A DNA stretch of 58,313 nt from Oscillospiraceae bacterium (GTDB lineage Bacteria > Bacillota > Clostridia > Oscillospirales > Oscillospiraceae), in contig JAFSCK010000008.1 of NCBI GenBank assembly GCA_017436785.1, positions 1 through 58,313 of the forward strand, given 5' to 3'. This document shows, in pieces, positions 3,988 to 25,543 of the stretch. Below the pieces are notes generated by a model, which saw nothing but the letters and a program-made list of their open reading frames with translations, did no database searches and was not told where the DNA came from. The translations under genes and the position numbers were made by a program. The number at the start of each line of letters is the position of its first letter. The first letter of the stretch is position 1.

Positions 3988-4014
3988 GAAAAGGCTCCTT
4001 TCGACGAAATTTAG

Positions 4015-4090
4015 ATAAAAAAGAACGCTCCCACGCAGGTGAAGAGGTACCCGCGCAGGAGCGTTTTGCTTGAGAACAGCAATTCGCTCC
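4015..4090 (-). promoter_or_regulatory. Transcription attenuator in the leader of the ArdC-like gene
   Basis: On the minus strand three complementary arms occur in order: GGAGCG (4090-4085), CGCTCC (4063-4058) and GGAGCG (4031-4026). Arms 2 and 3 extend to a 17-bp stem (4024-4065, with three G-U pairs) followed by CTTTTTT, a full intrinsic terminator. Arm 1 can instead pair with arm 2 as an antiterminator. The sensing signal is not evident; arm 1 is part of an AAAGGAG ribosome-site-like sequence. Confidence 0.55.
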
Positions 4091-4254
4091 TTTGACAGTG
4101 AAAATGGAACCAACACATAGTTCCATCTCGATATCAATGTGTGTTTCATTATTTTGACATATATTTTACATGAATTTGCTTGTAATCTATGATGTGTAGG
4201 TGTATTTTTAGAGTGAAGTTTGCAAGCTTTATTTATATGAAGGAGTTGATTATA

Positions 4255-4854
4255 ATGAGAAAATTTCAAAAAATTACTGCGCTCATTTTAGCGCTTCTCT
4301 GTTTGCAGGTTCCTGCAGCTTCTGCAACCACTGTTGATGTTCAAGAAGTCGATTCCATGGAATTGTATGTTGAGTACATGGAGTTCTACAACAACCAGCA
4401 GTATTATAAGGATTTGGCCAAAAACGAGGGATACACTATCATTATCAATGTTGGTGAAGAATATGCTGACTTGGAAAATGAAAGGATTGCTAGTGAAGCG
4501 ATTCAGATTGATGAACTTGTTTCTGGCAAACAGGCTCGTGATGGCTCTATTCCTACAAGAGAGTGGAATGTTTTGAACCAGGGAACAAAAGGTTTTAGTG
4601 GCACAGCAACAAATTCTACATGCTATACCGAATACAAATACTATGGCTGGACAGCATATGAAGTAAGTATTTACAATAGCAGCTCTCGCAATACGCTGTA
4701 CTATAGATTTTATAATACCGGGGATAACGCAACCTACTCTCTTTCTACAGGCACATCTGTCATCAAATATGTCCCGTTAAATCCTGAAACCAGATTCTAT
4801 CTGGGTTTTGATGCACCTGGTCAAGTAACAGGATATGTGGCGCGAGATATCTGA
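4255..4854 (+). CDS. Secreted protein of unknown function (ICE cargo)
   Basis: 199 residues; the ATG at 4255 is preceded by AAGGAG at good spacing. Residues 1-26 are a classical signal peptide (MRKFQKITALILALLCL then AASA-TT cleavage). The mature part is polar and rich in Tyr, Asn, Ser and Thr with a likely beta-rich C-terminal half (YEVSIYNSSSRNTLYYRFYN). No sortase signal, lipobox or catalytic motif is seen, so it should be released. It is encoded against the ICE backbone, is much more AT-rich than its neighbours, and is followed by a terminator and then by traX. Confidence 0.75.
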   Translation: MRKFQKITALILALLCLQVPAASATTVDVQEVDSMELYVEYMEFYNNQQYYKDLAKNEGYTIIINVGEEYADLENERIASEAIQIDELVSGKQARDGSIPTREWNVLNQGTKGFSGTATNSTCYTEYKYYGWTAYEVSIYNSSSRNTLYYRFYNTGDNATYSLSTGTSVIKYVPLNPETRFYLGFDAPGQVTGYVARDI

Positions 4855-5970: not shown

Positions 5971-6333
5971 TTACACCCGACCTCTGTGACGGCGTACCCG
6001 TTCACGGGTCTTTTTCCGCTGCTGGGAAAGGCCGCACTTGGGGCAGTAGATGGCCCGGTTCCCAGTGGGGATGAAGTATCGGCGGCAGAGAACACACTGT
6101 CGATACTGGCTGGAAACACCCAGCACCTTTTCCTGAAGATCCGGTGCAAGGGGCAGAACCGCATCCCGGAACCATGTACATTGCAGGGAGTAGCTGTTCC
6201 ACTGGGCGCAGCTTGGGTCAATTCCGTCATCCAGAGTACAGCAGTTTCCATTCTGGAAATTGCAGCAGTGCTTTCGGATCAGGCTTCGCATCTGTCTGAG
6301 CTGAAGATCATTGAACCGGGGCAGCTTACCCAT
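5971..6333 (-). CDS. Cysteine-rich VLP domain protein
   Basis: 120 residues with paired cysteines: a CC-x-F-x-NGNCC cluster near residues 23-32, C-x2-C at about 79-82 and C-x2-C at about 96-99, then a basic tail (RKKTRERVRRHRGR). This matches the Cys_rich_VLP family found next to topoisomerase III in Tn1549-like ICEs; zinc and nucleic-acid binding is inferred from the cysteines and basic tail. It starts inside the end of topB (8-nt overlap), implying translational coupling. Confidence 0.85.
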   Translation of the reverse strand: MGKLPRFNDLQLRQMRSLIRKHCCNFQNGNCCTLDDGIDPSCAQWNSYSLQCTWFRDAVLPLAPDLQEKVLGVSSQYRQCVLCRRYFIPTGNRAIYCPKCGLSQQRKKTRERVRRHRGRV

Positions 6334-8374
6334 TGCCGAACTCCAGCTTGAAATCTACCTTGTCGCCCTTATCCACCATGATAGCGGTGGCATCGTAGGT
6401 TTTGCCTGTCTTTTCGGAGTAGCAGCCCTTCATGGGAACCTGTCCGAATTGCAGCAGGGCGGCAGCGGTGGCTTTGTCCAGCTTTTTCTTCTTTACTTCA
6501 AAGAATCGGCTGTTTTTCCATAGGACGAAGCGACAGTTGGGATTCTGGCAGAAGAAGCCACGCTTGCGTTCTTCCACATTGGTGCCGCACCGGGGGCATT
6601 TGCCAACGACATCTTCTTTTTCCGGGAACAGAACTTCGGAACCGGGATAGGGCTTGTATTCTTCCACCATTTCCGTGAGCATTTCTGTGATTCCCTGCAT
6701 GAAATCAGTATCAGAAAGGGTTCCGGATTCCACCAGCTTCAAACGGTGTTCCCATTCCGCAGTCAGCAGCGGGGACTGAAGCTGCTCCGGTAGGACGGTT
6801 ATCAGGGCAATACCCAACTCCGTAGGGCGAAGATAGGATACCTTCTTGGACTTGGTTCGGATCACAAACTGGTCGGAGATCAGCTTTTCCAGAATACCGG
6901 ATCGGGTAGCCGGGGTGCCGATGCCCTTGCGCTCTGCATCTTCGGGCATATCCTGGATGCCTGCGTTTTCCATTGCAGCCAGCAATGTGTCCTCCGTGTA
7001 GTATTTGGGCGGCGTGCTTTTGCCGCCTTTCAAGGAAACACGGTTTACAGGAATGATCTGCCCTTCGGTAACGGCAGGCAAAACATTGGATTGGCTCTCC
7101 CGGAAGGAAAAGACCGTCCATCCACGTTTCAGTATTTCCTTACCTCTGGCCCGGAAAGTATGACCGGCACACTCTGCGGTCACAACAGTTTCCGCAAAGA
7201 GGTATTCCGGGCAGATGCCCCGCAGAAACCCCTGAGCTACCAGTGTCAGGATCGTTTGCTCTCCGGTAGGAAGTGCGGACACATCCACATTCTTTGCAGA
7301 AAGCGAAGGGATAACTGCATGGTGGTCGCTGACCTTTTGGCTGTTGCAAACTTGCTTGGGAAGAATCTTCTTGGGGAGTTCACAGCCAAGGATAGCGGCG
7401 GCAGCGGCAGCATAATCCGGGACGGCACTTTCCATATCATTGGTCAGATAACGGCTGTCCGTACGGGGATAGGTACACAGCTTCTTTTCGTAGAGGGATT
7501 GCAGATAATCCAGAGTCTGCTGGGCAGTAAAGCCGCAGAGCCTGTTGGCTTCCCGCTGCAAGGTGGTCAGATCATAGAGTGCCGGGGCTTTTTCCGTGTG
7601 TTCCTTGCGTTCTACGCTGAGAACGGTAATGGAGGAAACCGCACAAGCTCTGGTCAGCTCCTGGGCAGCTTCCATATCCGTCAGCTTCTCAGAGGACAGC
7701 GGGAAACCGCAGTCCAGCACCAGATGGTAGAAAGGTTCCGGGACAAAGGCGGAGATTTCCCGTTCCCGCTGAACCAGCAGAGAAAGGGTCGGGGACATGA
7801 CTCTGCCAATGTTCAGAGTGCGGTTATAGGTCAGAGAAAAGAACCGGGTGGCGTTGATACCCACCAGCCAGTCCGCTTTCATGCGGCACAGAGCGCTTTT
7901 GTGCAGACCATCGTATTCGCTGCCCGGTTGCAGATTCGCAAATCCTTCCCGGATGGCATCATCCTCCATGGAGGAGATCCACAGCCGCTTCATGGGCTTG
8001 CTGCATCCAGCCAGATAATACACGGTGCGGAAGATCAGCTCTCCTTCACGACCAGCGTCGCAGGCGTTGATAACTTCTGCCACATTGCCCTGGCGCATCA
8101 GGGTGTGGAGAACATCGAACTGCTCCTTCTTGTCCTCCTGGATACGGAATCGGAAGCTGCGGGGCAGAATAGGAAGATCTTTCATATTCCACTTGGCGTA
8201 ACCCGAATCATAGTAGGAGGCATCTGCCAGCTTTGCCAGATGCCCATAACACCAGGAAATGAGATAGCCGTTGCCTTCCAGATAACCCCTTCGCTGCTTA
8301 CAGCCGGGAGCAATGACTGCGGCAATGGCTTTTGCCACAGAAGGCTTTTCTGCCACGATCAGTTTATGTTCCAT
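6326..8374 (-). CDS. topB: DNA topoisomerase III
   Basis: 682 residues, type IA topoisomerase. The TOPRIM domain begins with IVAEKPSVAKAIA and includes DAGREGELI (about 106-114); the catalytic tyrosine is Tyr302 in TYPRTDSRYL. A C-terminal zinc ribbon (CPRCGTN...CQNPNCRF) is present. It relaxes negatively supercoiled DNA or decatenates single strands and is a core replication/transfer gene of this ICE family. Its start overlaps the stop of the DUF4366 gene (TAATG), and its end overlaps the Cys-rich VLP gene. Confidence 0.95.
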   Translation of the reverse strand: MEHKLIVAEKPSVAKAIAAVIAPGCKQRRGYLEGNGYLISWCYGHLAKLADASYYDSGYAKWNMKDLPILPRSFRFRIQEDKKEQFDVLHTLMRQGNVAEVINACDAGREGELIFRTVYYLAGCSKPMKRLWISSMEDDAIREGFANLQPGSEYDGLHKSALCRMKADWLVGINATRFFSLTYNRTLNIGRVMSPTLSLLVQREREISAFVPEPFYHLVLDCGFPLSSEKLTDMEAAQELTRACAVSSITVLSVERKEHTEKAPALYDLTTLQREANRLCGFTAQQTLDYLQSLYEKKLCTYPRTDSRYLTNDMESAVPDYAAAAAAILGCELPKKILPKQVCNSQKVSDHHAVIPSLSAKNVDVSALPTGEQTILTLVAQGFLRGICPEYLFAETVVTAECAGHTFRARGKEILKRGWTVFSFRESQSNVLPAVTEGQIIPVNRVSLKGGKSTPPKYYTEDTLLAAMENAGIQDMPEDAERKGIGTPATRSGILEKLISDQFVIRTKSKKVSYLRPTELGIALITVLPEQLQSPLLTAEWEHRLKLVESGTLSDTDFMQGITEMLTEMVEEYKPYPGSEVLFPEKEDVVGKCPRCGTNVEERKRGFFCQNPNCRFVLWKNSRFFEVKKKKLDKATAAALLQFGQVPMKGCYSEKTGKTYDATAIMVDKGDKVDFKLEFGNG

Positions 8375-9210
8375 TACACGCCCTCCTGGTCAGATGCAGG
8401 ATCGTACTGCTCGAACTCGGCGTACTCACCGTCGTCATCTTCGTCACCGAAGTCGTACTCATCCAGATCGGAGCTGCCCTTGGTCTGGGGCTTGTTCTTG
8501 CCCTTGACCTTGAGGAAGTAATAGGCACCGCCGCCAGCCAGAGCCGCAATGAGGATCACCACAAGAAGAATAGGCCCGGTGCCCACGCTGGGTTCCGGTT
8601 CCTCCACAGGTTCCGTGGGAGGCTCGGTTTCCGGTTCGGTAGGCTCCACGCCCATACACTCCACCATGTTCACGGCGCAGATTTCACACTGGGTATTGAT
8701 AAGACCAACGCTGCATTTATCAGCGCAGATACAGGCAGCGGGGGCAGAGTTATCTTCCAGCAGGGCCATGAGGTCGGCTTCGTCCACCTGATTTAAGAAA
8801 TAGGTGTAATACTGTTCGCCGTCCTCGTCCACGGGCTTATCGTAGTCGATGACGATGTAGAAGGTATTGCCGTTCCGGGTTTCCACGGTGATGTACTGTT
8901 TGTTGGTGGCAGCATCGTACAGAAGATCACGGGTGGCAACGATGCTGTCCTCGGTAAAGGGCATCCCGTCCACAGCAATGGTGGGGGCAGGGGGTTCCGT
9001 GCCTTCCGTAGCTTCCGTGCTGGAGGAAGGTCGGGAGGACTGGCTGGAAGTGGTCGTGTCCTTGGGCCGGGTTTCCTCCGGAGTCTGCACGATCACATCG
9101 TAATCCTTCTGATCCGGGTCATCTCCCATGGCATAGGCAGGGAGGGTAAGGGTAGACAGACACAGAACCAGAGCAAGCAGACAGGACAGGAACCGCATCT
9201 TAGGTTTCAT
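8374..9210 (-). CDS. DUF4366 membrane-anchored ICE protein
   Basis: 278 residues: signal peptide (residues 1-27, ending AYA), a Thr/Ser/Pro-rich linker, an extracellular domain with six cysteines (around 155-190) flanked by Pro/Glu spacers, one transmembrane helix (about 212-235) and an acidic cytoplasmic tail. The arrangement is typical of DUF4366 proteins encoded beside topB in CTn elements. It is probably a surface-exposed accessory of the mating channel, which is inferred from position. AAAGGAG precedes the ATG at 9210; the gene overlaps the DUF4315 gene. Confidence 0.85.
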   Translation of the reverse strand: MKPKMRFLSCLLALVLCLSTLTLPAYAMGDDPDQKDYDVIVQTPEETRPKDTTTSSQSSRPSSSTEATEGTEPPAPTIAVDGMPFTEDSIVATRDLLYDAATNKQYITVETRNGNTFYIVIDYDKPVDEDGEQYYTYFLNQVDEADLMALLEDNSAPAACICADKCSVGLINTQCEICAVNMVECMGVEPTEPETEPPTEPVEEPEPSVGTGPILLVVILIAALAGGGAYYFLKVKGKNKPQTKGSSDLDEYDFGDEDDDGEYAEFEQYDPASDQEGV

Positions 9211-9453: not shown

Positions 9454-11220
9454 TTATGGCAGTCTGCCATAGGTGTAGAAATGGGACTGCCAGTAACTTG
9501 AATTTAGATTGGTATAGGAAATGGGATCTCCGCAGTGGATCATCCGGTTGTTGCCAGCATAGATGCCCACATGGGAAACGCCGGGCGTGTCATAGGTGCC
9601 CTTAAAGAACACCAGATCTCCCGGCTTTACATTGGACGAAGATACGGGGGTGCAGATGTTGCACAGCCCCTGGGCACTGAGTCTGCCTACATTCCATCCG
9701 GAATGGTTGATGACCCAGCTAACGAAACCGGAACAGTCAAAAGAGGTTGAGGGATTGCTGCCGCCCCAGACATAAGGATAGCCCAGATATTTTTCCGCTT
9801 CTGTAATCATGGCGGCAAACTGGGCATCTTCCAGAGCTTCCGGAGGAATCTCGTACACGGGATAGCTGCCATCGTAGCGGTCAATGTACTCAGAATCCGG
9901 GAACAGGTCTGTCCGGTTGCCCAGAGTGGACATATACACCGCGTACATTCCCAGTTCTTCCTCCGTCATCACATAGACCGGTACATGGCTCAGGTCAAAG
10001 TTTTCCAGAGTGACGGTGCAGGTGTAGTGGGTATAGGGCACATCAGCTTCGTATTCATATTCCTCCATGATGGGATCGCCCCAGTAGTCATAGAGATATT
10101 CCCCTGTGATGGGGTCCTGGGCATGACGTTCTCCGATGAGGGTTTCTGTCCGGTAGCGGGTTTCCGTTTCCACTTCTTCGGTGAGGATATACTGCTTTTC
10201 AAACAGCATATCCAAGGTTCCCATGACTTCGGGCAATGTCCACTCACTGGGATGGAGGGCAGACAGAATGGAGGTCAGCACATAGGGGTCATGGCCGATT
10301 TCATCCAGATCATAGATGTAATCGTCATAGCTGTGGGTGGATTCATAGTTGTCCAGCTTGCTCTGCAGTGCGGCTTCCATGGCGCAGTAGGCAGCTTCCG
10401 CATCCTGGATGGCATCGTCGGTGGAAGCATAGGTGCTGCTGGCAATACCGGAAATGACACCCTCCATGACCACGGTGCAGGAGGATAGGCCGCTTAGGAA
10501 AAAGCCCAGCAGTATGAGAAGTCCCAGGATCACCAGAAAAGCCTTGCTGTGCTTCTTTACAAAGGTGGCAGTCTTTTTGCTGGTTTCCGTGGCCGTCTTT
10601 GCGGTTTTCTCCGTGATGCTGGCTGCGGTCTGGGTGGTGCCAGCGGAAGTGCCTGCTTTGGCGGCGGTATACTGGCGCTTGATGGCCTGCCGCTGCTGAA
10701 ATTTGGAAAAGGGATTACTGGTGGGGTGATCCAGTTCCATCTTCTTTTGCAGGGCATCCAAGTTGGCTTTGTCCAGCTTCTGATCCGCCTTTGCCGCTTC
10801 TCGGTAGGGTTTCAGCTTATGGCTCCGGTAGCCAGCATGAAGAATTTGGGAGGTGCGTTCCGCTGACTGTTCCAGAGTGTGGGCAGCCTCCACACCAACA
10901 TTGTCATCCTCGGATTCACGGACTTCTTTATGAAGCTGCCCCCGGACAGTTTCAACCGGGGCGGTCTGGACAGCGTGGGTCAGCTTGGAGGGCGGCTTTT
11001 TCCTGCTTTCCTCAAATTGCAGCTTGACTTTCAGCTTTCCGGATTTGGGATCGGGGACAACATCTGCTTTCAGCTTCTTCCGGGAGGGGATCTTCCCCTG
11101 GGCAGAATCCGCCTTGTCGGCAGCTTTGTCGGCCTTCTGAACTTTCTTTTGCAGTTCCGGATTTCCGCGTTCCTCGTCTGTGAATTTGAGCCGGGGCGGA
11201 CGCTTATACAAACCATCCAC
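9454..11220 (-). CDS. CD1108-family NlpC/P60 cell-wall hydrolase of the conjugation apparatus
   Basis: 588 residues. A basic, low-complexity cytoplasmic N-terminus (about 225 residues) is followed by one transmembrane helix (about 226-248), an extracellular linker domain and a C-terminal NlpC/P60 domain. The catalytic Cys is Cys496 (FDCSGF) and the His is His550 (SHVGIY). The role is local peptidoglycan opening for the type IV secretion channel, the VirB1 function. The annotated GTG start at 11220 overlaps the preceding gene by 17 nt and has a weak ribosome site, so the exact start is uncertain. Confidence 0.9.
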   Translation of the reverse strand: MDGLYKRPPRLKFTDEERGNPELQKKVQKADKAADKADSAQGKIPSRKKLKADVVPDPKSGKLKVKLQFEESRKKPPSKLTHAVQTAPVETVRGQLHKEVRESEDDNVGVEAAHTLEQSAERTSQILHAGYRSHKLKPYREAAKADQKLDKANLDALQKKMELDHPTSNPFSKFQQRQAIKRQYTAAKAGTSAGTTQTAASITEKTAKTATETSKKTATFVKKHSKAFLVILGLLILLGFFLSGLSSCTVVMEGVISGIASSTYASTDDAIQDAEAAYCAMEAALQSKLDNYESTHSYDDYIYDLDEIGHDPYVLTSILSALHPSEWTLPEVMGTLDMLFEKQYILTEEVETETRYRTETLIGERHAQDPITGEYLYDYWGDPIMEEYEYEADVPYTHYTCTVTLENFDLSHVPVYVMTEEELGMYAVYMSTLGNRTDLFPDSEYIDRYDGSYPVYEIPPEALEDAQFAAMITEAEKYLGYPYVWGGSNPSTSFDCSGFVSWVINHSGWNVGRLSAQGLCNICTPVSSSNVKPGDLVFFKGTYDTPGVSHVGIYAGNNRMIHCGDPISYTNLNSSYWQSHFYTYGRLP

Positions 11221-11571: not shown

Positions 11572-14439
11572 TTAAGATGCCTCCTTTGTGACTTCAGTGG
11601 GTTTGGTTGTCATGACTTTATAAAGCTCAGTTTCCTTGGGGAAGTGGTCAATGAACGGCAGGATCGTGTTGCCGTAGAACAGCAGCCCTTCACCTTCACC
11701 GGAGTGGGTGACGTAGGATAATTGGTGGGGAGAGATGCCAAGGTGCTTTGCCAGAATCTGACGATCACCTGCAGCCTGGTTGAGCATATATATGAAATCG
11801 GAGTTTTCAAAAATATTCTCAATTTCCCGGCTGCTCAGAAGGTCTTTGACGTTCTGGGTGATGCCAGTGGGGATGCCGCCCCATTTTCGGAATCTTTTCC
11901 AGATTTCCACGGAATAGGCGGCGGTCTGTTCCTCCTTCAGCAGAAGGTGGAACTCGTCGATGTAGTAACGGGTTGCTTTGGGTTCCGTGCGGTCAGCAGC
12001 GACCAGGGCAATACCATCCTCTACTTCCTGTGCTGCGATAGCCTTGTACTGGAAACGGTTTTCTGTAACACGGTTCCAGACCTGATCCTGCACGATCAGC
12101 ATACCGATTTTCTTCAACTGCTTACCCAGCTCCCGAATGTCAAAGCACACGATCCGGTTGTTGATGTCCACATTGGTCCGGTGGTTGAATACGGAAAGAG
12201 AACCGGAAACGTAGATTTCCAAGGCGGTGGCAATGTACTGTGCTTCCTTTTCTGCCTGTTTGCGGAGGGTATCGTACAGATCGCCAAGGATGGGCATATT
12301 CTCCGGTTTCGGGTCATTGAGATAATCCTGGTAGACCAGCCGCACACAACGGTCGATGATGGTTTTCTCCACAGGAGCAAGTCCATCCTTGCCGGCAACG
12401 ATCAGTTCGCACAAGCTCAGGATAAAGTCGGACTTTAAGGACAGTGGGTTATCATCGTCGCTGTAATTGAGGTTGATATCCATGGGATTGATATGATCCG
12501 GGGACGTGGGGGAGATACGGATGACCTGTCCACCCAGCCGCTCCACCAGGGGAGCGTACTCACTTTCCGGATCGCAGATCAGGATATCGTCATTGGTAAC
12601 AAGAAAAGCGTTGCTGATTTCTCTTTTCGCGGAGAAAGACTTGCCGCTGTTGTGGGCAACCATCCCGTTTGCCAGCACAAAGTTCATGTGCTGAGGAACC
12701 GCCATGTCATAGACAGGGACGGGTTCGATCAGCTTATGCCGGGTCACATGGACAACCATGTGATTGCCGCTGAGAAGCTGGCCGGGGCGAATGGTTTTCG
12801 CTTCCAGGAACTTGCCATGGCGATCCATGAGCTTATGTTCCGGGGTGCATTGGACCATGCTGCCATCCAGCAGTTCCAGTTCAAACAGTTCGTCCGCATA
12901 CTTTTCCAGTCGAATATCCTTGGCTGCTGCGGTAATGATTTTCTTCTTACGGAAATCGTATGCCTTGACCAATGCCCGTTCGATACCGGAATCCACAAGC
13001 TCCGCAAAGGACACCGGAGTGCCGTCTGCGTAGAGAATCTGGGTATCGCCTGTAAAGCAGCCGGGAGTGCCGAGGATCAGCCCGTTGGGGTTTTTCAGCA
13101 GCTTCCGGTCAACCATGATGAGGTTGTTGGAAAGGGCGTTGATGCCGTAGTACAGGGCTTCCTTTCCTGTCTGGAACAGTTCCTGGGTGGTAAAGGGGAT
13201 GAAGATGGCCACACAGGAAGAAGTCAGACCACGCTGGATGTCGATGTAGTTCTTGCCCAGAGGCAGGCTGCTCATTACGCCTTCTTCCTGCTGATAGTCC
13301 AGCCGCACCAGAGAACAGTTATGCTTCTGGGCAATGGACTTGATCTGGAAGATGTTGTTATTGAGCTGCCGGGGATTCTCCGAGGTATTCAGAACCAGGA
13401 AGGTCAGAAGGAACATTCGCTCATTTCTGCTCTGGAGGTCCTGCAGCAGCTTCTTTGCTTCCGCACCGTAGGTGGCAAGATCGGAGGGGATGATGTCCAT
13501 GTCATATCCGGAACGAACAGCTTTTTTCTGTTCTTCGATCTTGGCCCGGTCCAGATCGGTGATCTTCCGCTTGATGGTCTTGATGGCACTGACCTGATCC
13601 ACGGACTGAACATGGAGATTGACGATGACGCTGCTTTCCAGATTCAGAAACTCTGCCAGGATACGGTCATTGAGTTCCGGTGCCAGGATCTGCAGGAAGC
13701 TGACGGCACCGGAGAGCTTGCCCATGCGGAAGCCCTTGCCGTTTTTGTATTCAAAACTGCTGGGAGCGACGAAGTCCTTGGTGGACAGCCCGGAAGGGGC
13801 CAGCCAGTTCCAGTCGAACAGGAAAGGCTCCTGTTCGTCCATTCTCAGAATGTCATGGAGGACTTGCAGCCGCTCCTTGCCATTGAGAACGGCGGCTTTT
13901 ACGCCCAGCCGTTTGAAGTTGTTGAGAATATCGATTTCCAGCCGTTCCAACCGCATCTTTGCCATACGGTAGGTCTGAGCTTCGATACCAAAGGTCAGAT
14001 ACTTGGTTTTGACCAGTCCGTTGTTGCCCCGCTCCAACTGCCGCTGAAGCATTTGGGCGTATTCTTCACGGATGCTGTCAAATTCATCTCCCTTGGGTGG
14101 GATGCTGATGCTCTGGGTGAATACCTCCTTGGAAACAGAGAGGTTGGCAAAGGTGAGCTGGAATTTGACAGACGCATCGAAGAAATTGAGGAAATCACAC
14201 CATGCTTCAAAGATGGCGGTCTTATCTTCGTTCTGGGAAAGCTGGTAGTTGATGTCCTGGAACTGGATGGTCTTGGTGAAATAGGTGGCGGTGACAACGC
14301 AGATGCCGTCGGGCATCATGCGCTTATAGGGAATACTGTCCTGCGCCGATTTTTCTTTCTTATCCGTCCGGTTTGCTCTTGCGATGGCTGCTTCGATCTG
14401 CTTCCGTTCGGCGCGGGTCAGCCGCTTCTTGGCGGACAA
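11572..14439 (-). CDS. VirB4-like conjugation ATPase interrupted in frame by an intein
   Basis: 955 residues, of which residues 461-597 are an intein, leaving an 818-residue VirB4/TraE-type ATPase, the usual family size. The ATPase energises type IV secretion at the membrane. The Walker A loop is split as GTPG | intein | SGKSF; Walker B is YYIDEFHLLL, and the ITQNVKDLL motif follows. Until the intein is excised the P-loop cannot form, so ATPase activity should depend on protein splicing. The start is a TTG at 14439 with AAGGAGG nine bases upstream, inside the prgI gene (80-nt overlap). Confidence 0.95.
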   Translation of the reverse strand: MSAKKRLTRAERKQIEAAIARANRTDKKEKSAQDSIPYKRMMPDGICVVTATYFTKTIQFQDINYQLSQNEDKTAIFEAWCDFLNFFDASVKFQLTFANLSVSKEVFTQSISIPPKGDEFDSIREEYAQMLQRQLERGNNGLVKTKYLTFGIEAQTYRMAKMRLERLEIDILNNFKRLGVKAAVLNGKERLQVLHDILRMDEQEPFLFDWNWLAPSGLSTKDFVAPSSFEYKNGKGFRMGKLSGAVSFLQILAPELNDRILAEFLNLESSVIVNLHVQSVDQVSAIKTIKRKITDLDRAKIEEQKKAVRSGYDMDIIPSDLATYGAEAKKLLQDLQSRNERMFLLTFLVLNTSENPRQLNNNIFQIKSIAQKHNCSLVRLDYQQEEGVMSSLPLGKNYIDIQRGLTSSCVAIFIPFTTQELFQTGKEALYYGINALSNNLIMVDRKLLKNPNGLILGTPGCFTGDTQILYADGTPVSFAELVDSGIERALVKAYDFRKKKIITAAAKDIRLEKYADELFELELLDGSMVQCTPEHKLMDRHGKFLEAKTIRPGQLLSGNHMVVHVTRHKLIEPVPVYDMAVPQHMNFVLANGMVAHNSGKSFSAKREISNAFLVTNDDILICDPESEYAPLVERLGGQVIRISPTSPDHINPMDINLNYSDDDNPLSLKSDFILSLCELIVAGKDGLAPVEKTIIDRCVRLVYQDYLNDPKPENMPILGDLYDTLRKQAEKEAQYIATALEIYVSGSLSVFNHRTNVDINNRIVCFDIRELGKQLKKIGMLIVQDQVWNRVTENRFQYKAIAAQEVEDGIALVAADRTEPKATRYYIDEFHLLLKEEQTAAYSVEIWKRFRKWGGIPTGITQNVKDLLSSREIENIFENSDFIYMLNQAAGDRQILAKHLGISPHQLSYVTHSGEGEGLLFYGNTILPFIDHFPKETELYKVMTTKPTEVTKEAS
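12649..13059 (-). other. Mini-intein (Hint domain) inside the Walker A motif of VirB4
   Basis: 137 codons in frame. Block A is CFTGDTQIL with nucleophile Cys1. Block B contains CTPEHK, with Thr72 and His75 as the TxxH pair. Block F is VYDMAVPQHMNFVLANG with Asp118 and His124. Block G ends MVAHN, with penultimate His136 and terminal Asn137. The +1 extein residue is Ser. All residues needed for standard class 1 splicing are present. There is no room for a homing endonuclease. Joining the flanks restores GTPGSGKS exactly. Confidence 0.93.
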
Positions 14440-14791
14440 TGCGGTGAACCTCCTTATCTAGTTGATGCTGCCGCTGTAACACGGCGTAGAAATTGTTGGT
14501 CCGGTAAGGACGGTGCTTCGGACGGATGAAGCATACCTGGATCATATTCCGCAAAATGACCTCCAAAGGCTGTCCATTCTTTTCATACATGGCAAGAAGG
14601 AACGCCGGGATCATCACCAGGATCATGACCATGGTGGCAGTGCTGGTACCCAGCGGTTCCTTGAGGAAGATGAAAGCCGGTAGCCCCATGAGGGCACCGG
14701 CTCCGAAGCATACAAGCTGCCGTTTGGTAAGGTTAAACAGCACCTTGGTTTTGATTTTTGTTAAGTCCTTGGGGACGGTTACATAGGCCAT
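14360..14791 (-). CDS. PrgI family (VirB3-like) conjugation membrane protein
   Basis: 143 residues: a short N-terminal segment (MAYVTVPKDLTKIKTKVLFN), two adjacent transmembrane helices (about 28-70) and a basic cytoplasmic tail. This is the PrgI/VirB3 pattern, and the gene lies directly before virB4 as in all related elements. It is an inner-membrane component of the type IV secretion channel. AAGGAGG precedes the ATG. Its 3' end overlaps the start of virB4 by 80 nt, an unusually long overlap. Confidence 0.9.
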   Translation of the reverse strand: MAYVTVPKDLTKIKTKVLFNLTKRQLVCFGAGALMGLPAFIFLKEPLGTSTATMVMILVMIPAFLLAMYEKNGQPLEVILRNMIQVCFIRPKHRPYRTNNFYAVLQRQHQLDKEVHRIVRQEAADPRRTEADRSSHRKSKPDG

Positions 14792-14821: not shown

Positions 14822-15691
14822 TTAATGGGCATTGAAGATTGACTTTGCAAGGCTGCTTGTCTTGAACAGGCAGAAGCAAAGCAGAACTGTGTAGCCCATA
14901 CAGGTCCAGATGGCGCTGCTGATGTCCGCAGCAACGGAAATGCTCTGAACCAGTACAGCGTAGATGGCAACGCATACAATGATGAGAAATGCCTGGAATC
15001 CCAGAGCGAACAGGGCACGAAGGTAGTTCTGGCCCATGCCGCCCCATTCCTTGCCCATCATGGTTGCCATCGGGATGGGTGCAAGGGAGGTCACAAGGTA
15101 GATCTCGATCATTCTGCCGTAGGTGATGATGAAGATGCAGATGGCGATTGCCCAGGTGCAGATGCCAGCGAACAGGGACTGAAACCACAGCCCCAGCAGC
15201 GGACCGATCTCCATAGCCATGAGGGTGGTTTCCAGATCGGTCATCACGGAGGAAATATCAATGCTGGTATCTCCGGAGATAATGCCCGATGCACTGCCTA
15301 CCACACTTTGGGCGGCATCGAATACACCCATGACGATGTTCCAGGTGTTGGTGACGATTAGCACCGCAGCGGCGGACTTGAAGGCCCACTTGAAGAACAT
15401 CCAGGTATCTACATCGTTCAGATTGTTTTTGTCGGTTATGAGCTGGATCAGCTCAAGGGTCATAACAAAGGCGAGGATTGCCCCCGCAATCGGGACGATC
15501 ACGGAGTTGGACAGGTTTTGGATCATGCCGAAAATGCTGGCGTTCCATGCCTGGGGTGTCATGGCAACCTGTCCTGCGATTTCACGGACCTTCTGGTTGG
15601 TGGCATCGAATAGTCCGGTCAGGTTGCTGATGACGCCGCTGACAAGCATTTCCTTCAGCCATTCCGTGATTTTGTCCCACAGAAAATCCAT
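14822..15691 (-). CDS. VirB6/TrbL-like channel protein, CD1112 family
   Basis: 289 residues with about six transmembrane helices, an amphipathic N-terminus (MDFLWDKITEWLKEML) and the FIITYGRMIEIYLVTSLAPIP region characteristic of the family. It forms the inner-membrane core of the ICE mating channel. AGGAGG precedes the ATG. In most relatives this gene directly follows the Maff2 gene; here an 8-kb pilus island separates the two. Confidence 0.9.
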   Translation of the reverse strand: MDFLWDKITEWLKEMLVSGVISNLTGLFDATNQKVREIAGQVAMTPQAWNASIFGMIQNLSNSVIVPIAGAILAFVMTLELIQLITDKNNLNDVDTWMFFKWAFKSAAAVLIVTNTWNIVMGVFDAAQSVVGSASGIISGDTSIDISSVMTDLETTLMAMEIGPLLGLWFQSLFAGICTWAIAICIFIITYGRMIEIYLVTSLAPIPMATMMGKEWGGMGQNYLRALFALGFQAFLIIVCVAIYAVLVQSISVAADISSAIWTCMGYTVLLCFCLFKTSSLAKSIFNAH

Positions 15692-15714: not shown

Positions 15715-16485
15715 TTATTCGGAACCGGGATTCAGAGAACGCTCGCAGAACACAAGATACCGCTGCTTTCCACCGGAAGCGTAGGGGTGGCAGGTCAGCA
15801 GCGTAATCATGTCCTTACCTTCGTGGATCAGAATATCGTCCACACTGGTAGGGTCAATGATGCGGACACAGCTGACGGTGTAGGTCATGGTTTCCCAGAG
15901 ATTCGTGATGATGACTTCATCGCCCACTTCCAGATCGGTGATGTACCGGAAGTAAGAAGCTCCGCCCCAACCACGATGACCAGCAATGACGGCGTTGGTG
16001 TTTTTTCCGCCGATGGGGATGCTGGTCTGGGACAGCACCGCAGCACCGTCTGCCATGTTCTGATAGGATGCACCCAGGAAGATGGGCATTTCCAGTTCCA
16101 GCTTCGGAATGGAGATCACACCGAAGATCTCATCCTCAAGACCGTAATCTTTGAGGATGAAGCTGGGAACTTCATAAGCATAGCTGTTGGCAAGCCCAGT
16201 CTGACCCTGTTCATAGATGGATTCGTTGTAGGCGGTCATTTCCTCCCACAGCTCCAGATGCTGCCGGGGTTCGGTTTCCTCCGGTTCCGTAACGATGATG
16301 ACCGGTTCATCCTTTTCCGGAACATCACCGATGATCTCCACCCGGCTCAGAAATTCTTCTGACTGCCGCTCCATGATGCCGTCTACGATGGCACCCTGGA
16401 CATACGGATAAAGAGCCAGCGACAGACCGGCCACGAACAGCATCACCAGGAAGATGAACAGGAAGGTTTCAAATTTACCTCTCAT
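15715..16485 (-). CDS. Sortase (class C-like), pilus island
   Basis: 256 residues with one N-terminal membrane anchor (about 5-28) and a sortase barrel: His170 (AGHRGW), Cys232 (TLLTCHPY) and Arg242 (KQRYLVFCER). Unlike its neighbour it has no C-terminal membrane helix. A different specificity, such as anchoring to the wall or adding the tip protein, is possible; class C versus another class cannot be settled by eye. The ATG at 16485 follows GGAGGG; the gene overlaps the preceding sortase gene by 11 nt. Confidence 0.9.
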   Translation of the reverse strand: MRGKFETFLFIFLVMLFVAGLSLALYPYVQGAIVDGIMERQSEEFLSRVEIIGDVPEKDEPVIIVTEPEETEPRQHLELWEEMTAYNESIYEQGQTGLANSYAYEVPSFILKDYGLEDEIFGVISIPKLELEMPIFLGASYQNMADGAAVLSQTSIPIGGKNTNAVIAGHRGWGGASYFRYITDLEVGDEVIITNLWETMTYTVSCVRIIDPTSVDDILIHEGKDMITLLTCHPYASGGKQRYLVFCERSLNPGSE

Positions 16486-17380
16486 GGCGGTTCCCTCCAT
16501 AAGTGGCATACCGTCCGGCAGAACTGAATTTCCTGCGGATCTTGCAGATGGAAATGATTGTGACAGCCAAGCCCAGTGCGGTGAAGACACCGATGAACAG
16601 TCCTTGCAGATACTTCTGCTCCCAACTGGATTTGGGAGGTTCCTCCTGCAAGACTTCATCCACCAGCACTTCCGCTTCCTCATAGGGAATCCGGGTGCCC
16701 CGAACCAGCAGACGGTGGGTGTTTACACCGTAGGGGGTGCAGGTAACGAGGGTACAGTAATCTTCCCCGGAGGTAATACCCAGCAGGCTTGTATCATGGG
16801 GCAGCACCGTATTGATTTCCTCCACCTGATAGGCAAGGACTTCTCCCAGCACATTCAGATAGAACACATCGTTCACTTCCAACAGTTCAAGGTCGGTGAA
16901 CATTTTCTGGGTTGCAAGGCCGCTGTGCCCTGTTAAAATGCAGTGGGTACCCTCGCCCCCAACCGGGAGGGAACTGCCCAGCAGATGCCCCACACCACGG
17001 TCAAGGGAATCATTTCCGGTACCGTGGTAGATGGGAAGATTCACGCTGATCTTGGGGATCTCCACATAGCCCATGATGCCGTCAGCGCCGATGTTGAGCT
17101 GACTGTCATAGTCCTCAGACGCAGCCAGAAGCGCTTCCTGGCTGTATGCTTCCTCCGTTGTGGAACCGGGGGTGATCGCTTTGTTGTAGGACACAGCCAG
17201 CTCACGGGCGTTCAGCAGTTCTGTGTTGTCGGCCTGCTCAATAACTTCTTCGTAAGCGGTATGGATTTCTGATGCGTACTTTTGGTTTACATAATTACTG
17301 ATGACCGGATACAGCATCAGTCCCAGAGAAAGCAGGAACAGGATCGCTGCCAGCACCAAGGTTAGAATTTTGCGTTTCAT
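16475..17380 (-). CDS. Class C (pilin-polymerising) sortase
   Basis: 301 residues with N-terminal (about 5-28) and C-terminal (about 257-280) membrane helices, as in class C sortases. The catalytic set is His152 (TGHSG), Cys214 (TLVTCTPYGVNTHR) and Arg223. It links pilin subunits by joining the LPxTG threonine of one to the pilin-motif lysine of another, on the outer face of the membrane. It lies just downstream of the LPETG pilin gene and overlaps the second sortase. Confidence 0.95.
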   Translation of the reverse strand: MKRKILTLVLAAILFLLSLGLMLYPVISNYVNQKYASEIHTAYEEVIEQADNTELLNARELAVSYNKAITPGSTTEEAYSQEALLAASEDYDSQLNIGADGIMGYVEIPKISVNLPIYHGTGNDSLDRGVGHLLGSSLPVGGEGTHCILTGHSGLATQKMFTDLELLEVNDVFYLNVLGEVLAYQVEEINTVLPHDTSLLGITSGEDYCTLVTCTPYGVNTHRLLVRGTRIPYEEAEVLVDEVLQEEPPKSSWEQKYLQGLFIGVFTALGLAVTIISICKIRRKFSSAGRYATYGGNRHER

Positions 17381-17404
17381 TCACAACTCCCTATTCCGTG
17401 AAAT

Positions 17405-17427
17405 GCCCCGGTAGAATCCACCGGGGC
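17405..17427 (-). terminator. Intercistronic hairpin between major pilin and sortase genes
   Basis: A perfect 8-bp GC-rich stem (GCCCCGGT / ACCGGGGC) lies just after the pilin stop. The following sequence is ATTTCA rather than a long U tract, so partial termination or mRNA stabilisation is more likely than full termination. Confidence 0.6.
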
Positions 17428-17436
17428 GGTTTTCAA

Positions 17437-19557
17437 TTAGCGGCTGCCGTTCTTCTTTTTGGAAGTCAGGACAATGACGGTTGCGGCACCAGCCATAGCC
17501 ACGATGCCCAGCACAGTGAAGATCATGGTGCCATGGTCACCGGTTTCGGGCAGGTCGAAGCCGCGGGTGTTCACAACGGTCAGCGGAGCTTCTGCATTGA
17601 TGCTGCCGTTGTCCTCCAGCATATTGACTGCATTGCCGTCAACGGTTGCGGAAGCAGTCAGCAGATGGTGTTCCAGATGGACCTGGGGCATATTCTTCAA
17701 ATCGCCGGTATCGTTGATGATGGTGGCGTATCTGGGGTCGTTCTGGATCAGACCCAGAACATCGGAATCGTAGATGTCACACAGATGGGCAGTTTCAGTC
17801 TGGGAAACGACGATCTCAATATCGTCCTTCAGCAGAGTGTAGCCGTTGTCGGTGCGGATCTCAGTCATAACATAGGTGTCATCTTCCAGACCCTTGATGA
17901 TGACCTTGCCGGGGTTGCCGTTGGATTCCACGGGAACGAAGTAGGTGGCATCTTCGGGGAAGCTGACATGATCGGTGACGTAATAGACACCCTCTGCTTC
18001 ATTCAGCTCTGCCTTGACGAAGTAACGGTCGGTGGTGTTCTGCAGCAGGAACTGGACATTGGAGAAGTCACCCTTGCCGTCGGAGAACAGCTTGGTCAGA
18101 TCAATGCCGTAGGTGTAAACATGGGCATCATCCACCAGAGTATCGTAGTAGTTGTCGGAAGTACGCTTCCAGGTCAGAACAACCTTGTTATCGTTGCCAT
18201 TGTCACCGAAGACCACGGAGTTGTCGCTGTCCATCTTGGCGGTATAGGTAATGCGAACAGTGCAGTCGGAGAAACCAGTGTTGACCATGGAGGAACCGGA
18301 ATAGACAGCCTTGGAAGTGTTGATCTCGGACAGGCCGCGCTCGGTCATTTCAATGGTCATAACACCTTCGCCAGTGGCAGCGGTGTTGTAGGCAGCAGAG
18401 AAGAAGCCGTCAGCTTCCTTCCAGGTGGTGATGAGGTCGGTGCAGGCTGCATCCTTATAGAACTCCAGAACAACGTCGCCCTGGGTGTAGGTCAGACCCT
18501 TGGACAGAGTATCCACAAAGGTATAGCAGGACAGGTAGGTGGATTCGGAGGTGATGGAGGGCAGAGTGGAAATGATCTGGTAGTCGATAACATCGCCAGA
18601 GGAAGCGGTGCCGGTGTGGGCAAAGCCATCGGTGATGTCGGTGGTGGAGCCATTGTGCTTGCCGGTGTCATTTTCAGACTCGCGAAGCTCCTTAACGAGG
18701 CTGGGAATACCAGTGAGGTTCTTGGGGTACAGGGTAATGTCATAGAACCAGCTTTCACCGCCATCTTCGGCATTGGTGCCATCAACGGTGGTCATGGGAA
18801 CAGATACCAGGAAGGGATTGGTGGTGGAAACGACCATTTCGGGAACCCGAGTTTCCACCACCAGGTACAGACCCAGTTCCAGATCGGTTGCTTCCGTGTG
18901 ACCGTAGCTGTCAGTCAGGGGCATTGCGGTGCCGCCGTTTGCAGCAATGTAGTTCTCCATTGCGTTCTTCACAGTGGTGGAGTTGGCTTCCAGACCAGCA
19001 GCCAGAGCATCGATCAGCACATCGGACTGATAGAAATACTTGGTTTCATCAAGCTGGTCAGCATTGGTATAACGCTTGGCACCGTTTTCCAGACCCAGTG
19101 CCCGGAGGAAGTCAGCACCCTTAACCTTGTCGATGCCGTACAGCACTTCCACATGGTTGTCGGTACGGCCATCAGCTTCGGATTCAGAGAACTGGACAAT
19201 ATCCGCGATCCGCAGATAGGTAAACTCAACACCCTTGATGGCATAGCCGTAGCTGACTTCGCCGTTGCCCAGATCAGACTGGTTATCGTTGTCACCGGCA
19301 CGGACAGCGCCGCCCAGAATGTTGTTGACTCCTTCTTCATCGTAGCGGCCAGTGGAAACATAGGAGCTGTCCCACACGCCGTCCTTCTCGGCGTTGGTCA
19401 GATCGTACTTGTAGATAGTCAGACTGCCCAGCGCATCTTCGTCGATGCGGACAGGCACAGTGGGATCGTCATAGTCCCGTGCGGAAACGCTGACAGGGAA
19501 GGACAGGATCAGCATGAGGGAAAGACACAGGGCGATTGCCTTTTTCAGATTTTTCAT
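17437..19557 (-). CDS. Major sortase-dependent pilin (LPETG shaft subunit)
   Basis: 706 residues. It has a signal peptide (1-27), Cna_B/SpaA-like isopeptide domains, a pilin motif with Lys279 in the context FYDITLYPKN, and a C-terminal LPETG (about 669-673), hydrophobic helix and SKKKNGSR tail. The combination of YPK pilin motif and LPETG defines a shaft pilin polymerised by class C sortase. The ATG at 19557 has GAAAGGA eight bases upstream; the TTG six codons earlier is rejected. A strong terminator separates it from the adhesin gene upstream. Confidence 0.93.
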   Translation of the reverse strand: MKNLKKAIALCLSLMLILSFPVSVSARDYDDPTVPVRIDEDALGSLTIYKYDLTNAEKDGVWDSSYVSTGRYDEEGVNNILGGAVRAGDNDNQSDLGNGEVSYGYAIKGVEFTYLRIADIVQFSESEADGRTDNHVEVLYGIDKVKGADFLRALGLENGAKRYTNADQLDETKYFYQSDVLIDALAAGLEANSTTVKNAMENYIAANGGTAMPLTDSYGHTEATDLELGLYLVVETRVPEMVVSTTNPFLVSVPMTTVDGTNAEDGGESWFYDITLYPKNLTGIPSLVKELRESENDTGKHNGSTTDITDGFAHTGTASSGDVIDYQIISTLPSITSESTYLSCYTFVDTLSKGLTYTQGDVVLEFYKDAACTDLITTWKEADGFFSAAYNTAATGEGVMTIEMTERGLSEINTSKAVYSGSSMVNTGFSDCTVRITYTAKMDSDNSVVFGDNGNDNKVVLTWKRTSDNYYDTLVDDAHVYTYGIDLTKLFSDGKGDFSNVQFLLQNTTDRYFVKAELNEAEGVYYVTDHVSFPEDATYFVPVESNGNPGKVIIKGLEDDTYVMTEIRTDNGYTLLKDDIEIVVSQTETAHLCDIYDSDVLGLIQNDPRYATIINDTGDLKNMPQVHLEHHLLTASATVDGNAVNMLEDNGSINAEAPLTVVNTRGFDLPETGDHGTMIFTVLGIVAMAGAATVIVLTSKKKNGSR

Positions 19558-19622
19558 TTCAAAAGTTCCTTTCAAAAAAATAGTAAGATAGATTTAGTTG
19601 AATTTGTTGGGGAATGAAAAAA

Positions 19623-19641
19623 GCCAGGGACGGTCCCTGGC
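19623..19641 (-). terminator. Intrinsic terminator between adhesin and pilin genes
   Basis: A perfect 8-bp stem (GCCAGGGA / TCCCTGGC) with a 3-base loop is followed on the minus strand by TTTTTT. It would stop or attenuate readthrough from the adhesin and transfer genes into the pilin gene. Confidence 0.85.
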
Positions 19642-19662
19642 GTGATATAGAACATGGGTCAT

Positions 19663-23758: not shown

Positions 23759-25543
23759 TCAGGCAGTTGTACCGGACACGGTTGTTTCATACACCTCGAA
23801 AGCATCGTCCGGCTTCAGCTTGAGGTGAGTGGATAGAAAACGATCTATGCTCAGTTCGTTTTTCTTGTTATAGTCGGATGTGTACTTGTAGTTGGGGTGC
23901 TTGGTGATGTCATACTTGTTCGACAGGAACGGTCTGACACCACGAAGCTGCAATATGCACTTGCCGCCGTCCATAACGGCCAGCTCGTCTTGGCTCATAA
24001 GGTCTTTGCCCAGCTTCTGATAGTTAAGGCTGTGGGAAACCTCCCGGCCCCGACTTTCTCCGGTGTTGAAGGTGTCAATGGTTTCTTTTCCAAGGGCAGT
24101 GGCCAATTCCTTCAGCGTGGTCGGTTCTTTGCCGCCCAGGAAGATGGAAGTGTCCATATTGCCGATGATGGTATCGGCATTGTCCTTGTAGATGGCTTTG
24201 AGCTGGGACTGGGCCTGCAAGACCAGACAGGCAGAGATTTCTCTGGAGCGGATCGTGGCGACCAGTTTTTCCAGCCGGGGGATTTGGCCGATATTGGCAC
24301 ATTCATCGATCAGACAGCGGACATGAACGGGGAGCCTGCCGCCGTACACATCGTCTGCCTTTTCGCACAAGAGATTGAAAAGCTGGGTGTAAATGAGCGA
24401 GATGAGGAAATTGAACGTATCGTCCGTATCGGACATGATAAGAAACAGGGCGGTTTTCTGGTCGCCCAGGGTGTCCAGTTCCAGCTCATCGTAAGCGGTC
24501 AGATCCCGCAGCTCCTGGATATCGAAGGGAGCCAGCCGTGCGCCGCAGGAAATCAGAATGGATTTCGCTGTTTTGCCAGCAGCCAGCTTGTACTTCTTGT
24601 ACTGGCGGACTGCGAAGTGCTGGGGATTCTCCTTTTCCAGTTCTGCGAACATGAGATCCACCGGATTCTGAAATTCTTCATCATCTTCCCGGACTTCCAT
24701 AGAGTTCAGCATCTCAATGAGGGTGGAGAAGCATTGCTCCTCCAGCGGAGCTTCGTAATGGATGTAGCCGATCAATGCCGTGTACAGCAGGGTTTCTGCT
24801 TTCACCCAGAAGTCGTCACCGGCTTTGCCTTCGCCCTTGGTGTTGGCGATCAGAGCTGTGACCAGCTTCAGAATATCCTTTTCGCTGTGGATGTAAGCGA
24901 AGGGATTGTAGTGCATGGATTTTTTGAAGTTGATGGTATTGAAGATTTTCAGCTTGTACTTGAACCGCAGGAGCATCTTTCCGCACTCGGTAACGATGCT
25001 GCCCTTGGGGTCAGTCACAACGAAGCTGACCGGGTATTTCTTGGAAGTGCATTGCATGAGGTTTGGTTTCAGCCAGAAGCGGGTCTTACCGGAGCCGCTT
25101 CCGCCGATAATCAGCACATTCTTGTTCCGTGCTGTTTTCGGGTCAGAAGGTCGATTGTTCATGGTCAGGCTTTCCGTCTGGGTCAGGATGATATTGTTTG
25201 CGAACACCGGGTCAACATAGGGTGCTATGTCAGCCTGGGTGCCCCAGCGGGCGGAGCCATATTCCATGTCCTTCCGGAACTTCTTTGCGTTCTTGCCCTT
25301 GATGTAGACCGCCAGACGGATAGCCAGAGCGATCAGAATACCAACACACAGGTCTATAGGGTGGAAGCTGGGCATGGACGATTCAAACGCCAGCACCAGC
25401 CCCTCCATGATGTGCAGGGCTTTCCCGGAGAAGTCAGATCCGGGAGCCAGCCGTGCAGCCTGTCCGACCTTGGTGGCAAACAGGGCAATGAACACATAAG
25501 GAATGTTGGGAAGGATCAGTTTCTTGTAATTGATGGGTTTCAG
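23759..25543 (-). CDS. VirD4/TraG type IV coupling protein (probable CTG start)
   Basis: About 594 residues. N-terminal membrane helices come first, then Walker A GGSGSGKT (about 147-154), Walker B LIDECANIG, and the SREISACLVLQAQSQL motif typical of coupling proteins that deliver the relaxase-DNA complex to the channel. The best start is a CTG at 25543: it sits eight bases after AAAGGAG and overlaps the pcfB stop as CTGA. The first standard codon, a GTG at 25495, has no ribosome site and would delete part of the first membrane segment. Confidence 0.93.
   Translation of the reverse strand: MKPINYKKLILPNIPYVFIALFATKVGQAARLAPGSDFSGKALHIMEGLVLAFESSMPSFHPIDLCVGILIALAIRLAVYIKGKNAKKFRKDMEYGSARWGTQADIAPYVDPVFANNIILTQTESLTMNNRPSDPKTARNKNVLIIGGSGSGKTRFWLKPNLMQCTSKKYPVSFVVTDPKGSIVTECGKMLLRFKYKLKIFNTINFKKSMHYNPFAYIHSEKDILKLVTALIANTKGEGKAGDDFWVKAETLLYTALIGYIHYEAPLEEQCFSTLIEMLNSMEVREDDEEFQNPVDLMFAELEKENPQHFAVRQYKKYKLAAGKTAKSILISCGARLAPFDIQELRDLTAYDELELDTLGDQKTALFLIMSDTDDTFNFLISLIYTQLFNLLCEKADDVYGGRLPVHVRCLIDECANIGQIPRLEKLVATIRSREISACLVLQAQSQLKAIYKDNADTIIGNMDTSIFLGGKEPTTLKELATALGKETIDTFNTGESRGREVSHSLNYQKLGKDLMSQDELAVMDGGKCILQLRGVRPFLSNKYDITKHPNYKYTSDYNKKNELSIDRFLSTHLKLKPDDAFEVYETTVSGTTA

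Follow-up and report, generated by a model that had tools for sequence, protein, structure and literature searches.

How does an intein without a homing endonuclease (HEN) keep its place in the ATP-binding loop of a conjugation motor, and does it serve any purpose there? Whether inteins persist as parasites or as switches is an open debate, and the question is raised here by a virB4 gene of an Oscillospiraceae bacterium (assembly GCA_017436785.1, contig JAFSCK010000008.1; the whole stretch of 58,313 nucleotides that was analysed is called the window below). The gene encodes a VirB4-like conjugal transfer ATPase, the Walker A loop (P-loop) of which is interrupted by what we take to be a self-splicing mini-intein. 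The features concerned are these.

11572..14439, minus strand: precursor of the VirB4-like conjugal transfer ATPase, CD1110 family, 955 residues (NF045971 at 1084.6 bits, match split at 425/426; match to 4ag5)
13060..13071, minus strand: N-terminal half of Walker A, GTPG, residues -4 to -1 of the splice junction (sequence)
12649..13059, minus strand: predicted mini-intein, 137 residues, Cys1 to Asn137 (sequence, PF14890, TIGR01445, TIGR01443, PDB inteins, residues conserved in relatives)
13033..13059, minus strand: block A, CFTGDTQIL, with Cys1 (sequence; relatives)
12835..12867, minus strand: block B, DGSMVQCTPEH, with Thr72 and His75 (sequence; relatives)
12679..12717, minus strand: block F, PVYDMAVPQHMNF, with Asp118 at F:4; F:13 is Met125, not His (alignments; relatives)
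12649..12675, minus strand: block G, LANGMVAHN, with His136-Asn137 (sequence; intein models; relatives)
12637..12648, minus strand: C-terminal half of Walker A, SGKS; the +1 nucleophile is Ser at 12646-12648, codon AGC (sequence)

With NF045971, the model for VirB4-like conjugal transfer ATPases of the CD1110 family (cut-off 325), the host protein reaches 1084.6 bits, and its residues 597-925 match the solved VirB4-like ATPase 4ag5 (E 7.8e-10). On the genome, model positions 1-425 fall at 13060-14346 and positions 426-625 at 12046-12648, so that the adjacent positions 425 and 426 are separated by the insert alone. This split confirms the proposal of the initial annotation that GTPG and SGKS are separated by an intein in the VirB4 Walker A, which makes it a P-loop intein; the nearest empty relatives with Ser at this place read GTPGSGKS. 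The coordinates and in-frame length proposed for the insert are exact on the minus strand. It runs from Cys1 (codon 13057-13059) to Asn137 (12649-12651) within the 955-residue open reading frame (ORF), is followed by Ser+1 (12646-12648), and its removal does leave 818 residues (955 - 137). The description of this position as the most essential site is an interpretation. The P-loop of the precursor is divided by 137 residues, and ATP binding should therefore fail before ligation. We infer, soundly in our view, that the precursor would be unable to bind ATP normally until it is spliced.

The insert itself is recognised by intein models above their curated cut-offs, as its proposed identity would lead one to expect: Pfam Intein_splicing (PF14890) gives 48.7 bits (cut-off 35.8), and the NCBIfam models intein_Nterm and intein_Cterm give 48.8 (cut-off 24.5) and 21.9 (cut-off 15.6). 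The solved chains nearest to it are inteins, the best by profile being that of Pyrococcus horikoshii (Pho) RadA (4e2u, E 4.1e-13). A Pretoxin-HINT assignment does not fit, the Pfam PT-HINT model giving 16.3 bits against a cut-off of 27.7 and the host being VirB4. A loose regular expression for the four blocks, composed post hoc once the sequence had been seen, finds a single match in the six-frame translation of the window and none in 200 two-base-block shuffles. No endonuclease family is found among Pfam matches to the insert up to E 1, in agreement with the earlier statement that a homing endonuclease is lacking. The length, 137 residues here and 136-137 in the relatives, is that of a mini-intein; natural mini-inteins without an endonuclease domain are described down to 134 residues (PMC4031507). 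The insert is real, and it looks functional.

The ten full-length sequences all have the class 1 residues, namely Cys1, TxxH in block B, the penultimate His, the terminal Asn and Ser+1. Class 3 inteins have neither Cys1 nor Ser1 and carry Cys at F:4, and the insert in the window, with Cys1 and Asp at F:4, is not one of them. Of the splicing residues named in the initial annotation, Cys1, Thr72, His75, Asp118, His-Asn and Ser+1 stand, and His124 of block F does not correspond to F:13, which is Met125. In alignments with Npu DnaE and Pho RadA, Asp118 falls at F:4, and the His before NF of those inteins stands opposite Met125 or in its column; that this histidine is F:13 is our reading. Residue 124 is His in the window only and Tyr in the nine other full-length rows. 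F:4 and F:13 are both described as less conserved positions in a review of class 1 inteins (PMC4031507). Some phage inteins have Asp or Glu at the F:13 position.

The comparison rests on ten full-length rows, which are the window, L012, L025-L028, L035, L071, L099 and L100. L034, which ends at a contig end and is a copy of L035, was left out of identities and trees; the truncated L014 was dropped; L072 (identical to L071 over 7145 nt) and repeat loci of the same places were set aside before extraction, and L022 and L058-L065, VirB4 loci that are distant or partial, were left unextracted. All ten inteins lie between GTPG and SGKS and have 136-137 residues, with pairwise identity down to 33%. 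Cys1, Thr72, His75, Asp118, His136, Asn137 and Ser+1 are kept in every one. Since there is one site and one size despite identities as low as 33%, the mini state is probably old, rather than the result of recent HEN loss.

The empty site is also common. In 28 rows VirB4 is continuous through the loop (13 found by an insert-tolerant search and 15 by the uninterrupted motif). In a class sample of 118 genomes, 3 of 41 CD1110 VirB4 places above the cut-off are split by the insert, the window included; the other 38 are unsplit, one of them stopping short of the site.

Where the intein is found was surveyed in samples that overlap, and whose counts are therefore not additive. Six further lineages, from Clostridia and from viral-collection contigs, have an insert of 136-137 residues at the same site, and there is one truncated copy besides. 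In the same-family sample there are matches in 4 of 400 genomes: the window, G250 (53% identity), G066 (50%) and the truncated copy in G039. A scan of genome contigs gave 10 loci, of which six were read. Five are VirB4, in an Intestinimonas metagenome-assembled genome, Pseudoflavonifractor An44, Catenibacillus scindens, Parablautia and Gemmiger An50, the first two being the same places as G250 and G066; the other five loci are 27-34% identical, and the one of these that was read is another protein. The class sample has matches in 4 of 391 genomes, all VirB4. In the family of G687 (2 of 70 genomes) one match is VirB4 and one an RHS-like protein; in that of G844 (5 of 397) three are VirB4 and two other Hint proteins. 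The order sample (5 of 295) gave two VirB4, those of the window and G066, and three genomes with RHS/Hint-like proteins. The same two are the VirB4 matches of the phylum sample (7 of 309), where loci were read in four of the other five genomes and appear by eye to be ribonucleotide reductase (twice), an RtcB-like protein and a Hint-like protein. Two of 10 loci were read in a further scan. RHS/Hint-domain proteins are common among the non-VirB4 matches in these genomes (L036, L101, L108 and others).

The viral-contig scan gave 28 loci, and the VirB4 among the eight read are L071 and L072. These two viral-collection contigs, each with a CD1110-like VirB4 that holds the intein, may belong to conjugative elements and not to viruses. 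Queries with L100 and L035 for more VirB4 inteins in viral contigs found no relative. Among 72,556 plasmid records the window intein matches one, in gyrB, and the L035 intein none; the whole VirB4 matches 1858. Of 50,697 phage records three match: two are one phage (ribonucleotide reductase) and the third is at a place without an annotated gene.

The truncated copy in G039 (L014, 451-1803, minus strand) is a VirB4 broken within the intein, leaving intein residues from about 48 and the C part of the protein; it is either a relic or a misassembly. Beside it, on the opposite strand, is a frame resembling what we take to be a sulfate adenylyltransferase.

In the six pairs among L025-L028, the ratio of nonsynonymous to synonymous divergence (dN/dS) is 0.03-0.09 for the intein (1-4 nonsynonymous changes per pair), 0.006-0.034 for the N-extein and 0 for the C-extein. 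The intein is under purifying selection, with weaker constraint than the flanking host parts; such selection is to be expected wherever an intein sits in a protein that is required.

That splicing works is best indicated, at present, by the movement of the elements that carry the intein. Pseudoflavonifractor, Catenibacillus, Parablautia and Gemmiger (L025-L028), which in the NCBI taxonomy belong to Oscillospiraceae and Lachnospiraceae, have in common 28-47 kb of intein-bearing element per pair, counted over stretches of at least 1 kb and with the Pseudoflavonifractor and Gemmiger regions running to contig ends. Identity is 90-97.5% in 33 of the 40 stretches and ranges from 87 to 99.7%. L034 and L035, from two other families, have 4042 nt in common at 99.5%. 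Elements with an intein-split VirB4 have thus moved between families.

On the basis of these observations, we propose that the insert is an old, HEN-less class 1 mini-intein in the VirB4 P-loop, which excises itself, is mostly inherited with virB4, and is not a maintained switch. We give this reading a probability of roughly 0.78. VirB4 would be synthesised as an inactive precursor of 955 residues; an N-S shift at Cys1 would be followed by transesterification onto Ser+1, by cyclisation of Asn137 assisted by His136, and by an S/O-N shift that joins GTPG to SGKS and yields an ordinary ATPase of 818 residues. The conjugative element, with its CD1107/CD1108/CD1110-type genes, would ferry the intein between bacteria. 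The intein would persist because exact removal alone is tolerated. Persistence without a HEN is thereby explained with no need of a benefit, the constraint of precise excision and travel with the element being sufficient.

Several observations weigh against this reading. With regard to splicing, residue F:13 is M, L, Y or G across the ten full-length VirB4 inteins and His in none, and the missing His could retard Asn cyclisation. The intein evolves faster than the exteins in the L025-L028 pairs. Transfer might also have been aided in trans by another type IV secretion system in the same cell: the genome of the window has four other CD1110 VirB4 copies above the cut-off, all intein-free, two of which share 74-76% of residues in the N part and 84% in the C part with the VirB4 of the window. 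With regard to inheritance, synonymous distances mostly approach saturation, and the intein tree lacks resolution. The L071 intein (4001-4408) has 57% GC at third codon positions, against 79-81% in its VirB4 flanks, and is possibly a later arrival. Finally, the intein of L012 is 66% identical to that of L025 and 53% to that of the window, with N-extein identities of 58% and 73%.

The third-position GC of L071 and the discordance of L012 are also grounds for an alternative in which the intein entered VirB4 lineages several times, by past homing or recombination, and was not an old resident repeatedly lost; it would still splice. Trees were built for the N and C extein parts with 29 of the 38 rows (LG+G4 without mixture; nine further distant empty rows were omitted, and the program warned of long branches). 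The intein-bearing VirB4s do not form one clade (approximately unbiased test, p 4e-9 and 1e-6 for the N and C parts), and presence of the intein takes 6 changes of state, at least 3 of them forced by starred branches. It still shows some clustering (with as low a count in 22 and 34 of 500 shuffles), to which near-copies contribute. A single clade of the window, L012, L071 and L099 is rejected by the C part (p 2e-5) and not by the N part (p 0.22), nor is it by the intein tree (p 0.162). Counts of changes cannot tell gain from loss.

Two local features may also point towards past homing. All 10 intein rows encode Ser+1 with AGY, whereas of the 25 empty rows with Ser 12 have AGY and 13 TCN (Fisher p 0.005; p 0.025 with L025-L028 counted as one, and 0.10 in the near clade minus near-duplicates). 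Control serines give p 1.0 at +4 and p 0.05 at +6 (0.25 after collapsing), and the effect therefore lacks clean site specificity. In the last 60 nt 5' of the intein (13060-13119 in the window, and in relatives), third-position identity is 72.5% among four intein alleles and 50.6% between these and four empty ones, a contrast this strong arising in 1 of 70 labelings; for the N part as a whole the values are 56.4 and 47.4, again with 1 of 70. The codon bias and the flank likeness could be traces of homing or co-conversion, from small numbers that relatedness and GC content confound.

Against repeated entry, no HEN-bearing form was encountered at the VirB4 site. Synonymous divergence is similar for intein and flanks in most pairs, and the GC content of the intein, 39-64%, tracks that of its gene in 6 of 7 lineages. 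The same synonymous distances leave a recent transfer of the intein alone unsupported in most pairs, the third-position GC of L071 being the exception. Gene conversion by a distant empty allele was also considered as a route of loss, and identity followed segment by segment across the junctions of L016 and L017 shows no clear mosaic. Repeated entry is a serious but doubtful alternative. Our reading is of an old resident that has mostly diverged with its gene, with repeated loss, probably through recombination with empty alleles.

A second alternative is that splicing is conditional: VirB4 would stay inactive until a cue (redox, ssDNA, temperature or metal) is received, and conjugation would be gated after translation. 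There are precedents of the same anatomy, the HEN-less P-loop mini-inteins of Pyrococcus RadA (PMC5790916) and Mycobacterium smegmatis DnaB (PMC6195587), which splice conditionally; in the latter, oxidation links the catalytic Cys to a second one by a disulfide (PMC6195587). Pho RadA is also the top profile match among solved chains, and retention without a HEN has been long. However, close relatives are patchy for the intein, the genome of the window itself holding two near-related empty copies, with at least three state changes forced by starred branches, and 3 of 41 CD1110 VirB4 places in the 118-genome class sample are split. Nor is the cysteine pattern constant. The commonest second cysteine, C71, just before TxxH, is absent in L035, and cysteines near the junctions vary; C71 is shared by phage inteins and by one intein that we take for that of a ribonucleotide reductase. 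Because of this inconstancy and the patchy presence, nothing points to a particular cue. The suggestion made at the outset, that selection keeps the intein as a redox switch acting through Cys1, is unsupported on the same grounds, Cys1 being moreover the ordinary class 1 nucleophile. A regulatory role for the VirB4 intein is possible and unsupported, and we think conditional splicing improbable. A more specific version, in which precursor is pooled in assembled but ATP-blind form until a mating cue (redox, or ssDNA at the channel) triggers splicing upstream of the classic GK/T site, is a shade less probable again.

It is very unlikely that the insert is a decayed, non-splicing intein in a non-functional element. 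The absence of the F:13 His, the lack of a PF03432 relaxase match on the contig (see below) and the truncated copy in G039 would be in keeping with decay, but all ten rows retain the class 1 residues checked, which are under selection, the VirB4 frame is open, and near-related intein-bearing elements occur in four genera. An assembly chimera, conceivable in a metagenome-derived genome of 174 contigs with 7.34% estimated contamination, is refuted by independent copies of the insert at the same site in Catenibacillus scindens DSM 106146, Pseudoflavonifractor sp. An44 and viral-collection contigs.

The neighbours of virB4 form a conjugation module, which also includes a DUF3801 protein.

6326..8374, minus strand: topoisomerase III-like protein (best models PRK07726, 583.2 bits, cut-off 597, and TIGR01056, 505.6 bits, cut-off 515.75, both slightly below cut-off)
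8374..9210, minus strand: CD1107-like mobile element protein (PF14283, 171.8 bits)
9454..11220, minus strand: CD1108-family mobile element protein with NlpC/P60-type C part (NF045974, 238.9 bits, cut-off 100)
14360..14791, minus strand: PrgI-family protein, upstream of virB4 (PF12666, 106.7 bits)
14822..15691, minus strand: TrbL/VirB6-like protein (PF19478, 165.4 bits)
15715-23391, minus strand: pilus cargo between TrbL and VirD4 (class C sortase, second sortase-domain ORF, LPXTG major pilin, SpaA-domain protein)
23759..25495, minus strand: VirD4/TraG-type coupling protein (PF02534, 168.6 bits)

In the pilus cargo, the class C sortase scores 170.6 bits (cut-off 160) and the LPXTG major pilin 125 bits (cut-off 95), and the SpaA-domain protein has 1242 residues with seven SpaA stretches. 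Chromosome-like genes, among them a MatE-family transporter, start at about 34 kb. PF03432, the sole relaxase family searched, has 0 matches on the contig of the window (C52), so the element may lie only partly inside the window; in the same genome there are matches on contigs C69, C81 and C110. No resistance gene was recognised in the 46 distinct ORFs scanned besides VirB4 (10 with NCBIfam, 40 with Pfam and 4 with both; no resistance library was used). In its C part, at about 12010-12080 (minus strand), the VirB4 of the window has some 20 extra residues ahead of the YYIDEFHL motif, a position at which L014 also has additional residues, of a different sequence.

VirB4 inteins pose the question of parasite or switch on conjugation, a trait that is dispensable and can be counted, and some of the hosts are named strains. 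One genome houses both intein-bearing and empty VirB4 alleles. Conjugative elements are seen here as vehicles that carry a HEN-less intein across bacterial families.

It remains to compare the intein with known systems. According to a review, about 70% of inteins are in ATP-binding domains (PMC10663303), and in the available part of an Azotobacter genome paper inteins are reported in ribonucleotide reductases only. No published intein in VirB4 or another conjugation ATPase was found within the open-licence PubMed Central (PMC) literature, as far as excerpts of it go. The Pho RadA intein is also a HEN-less mini-intein in an ATPase P-loop (PMC5790916), and it too has a His-Asn end. The hosts differ, archaeal RadA as against VirB4, and F:13 is His in RadA and Met in the window. 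M. smegmatis DnaBi1 (DnaB-b) is likewise a HEN-less P-loop mini-intein of an ATPase with Ser at +1 (PMC6195587), but belongs to class 3, with Ala1, DxxH and, in place of the F-block Asp, Cys118 as a catalytic residue, whereas the VirB4 intein has the Cys1, TxxH and Asp F:4 of class 1. The +1 residue of DnaBi1 is moreover the Mg-coordinating Ser of the P-loop, while that of VirB4 is three residues earlier (GTPG/SGKS). The mycobacteriophage inteins TerL1-a and TerL1-b also lie in the Walker A of an ATPase, one for DNA packaging (PMC5050341), and differ in host and vehicle; TerL1-a is between Lys and Thr, the 'classic' site, and TerL1-b is one residue off (PMC5050341), the VirB4 site being three residues upstream of the classic one. 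The group II intron Ll.LtrB in the relaxase gene of pRS01 is another self-splicing element inside a conjugation gene, and it restrains conjugation (PMC6003770), though it is an RNA intron that targets mRNA, and the element here is a protein intein in an ATPase. As far as we have checked, then, the P-loop mini-intein is a known kind, and what is new is its host, its vehicle and where in the loop it lies.

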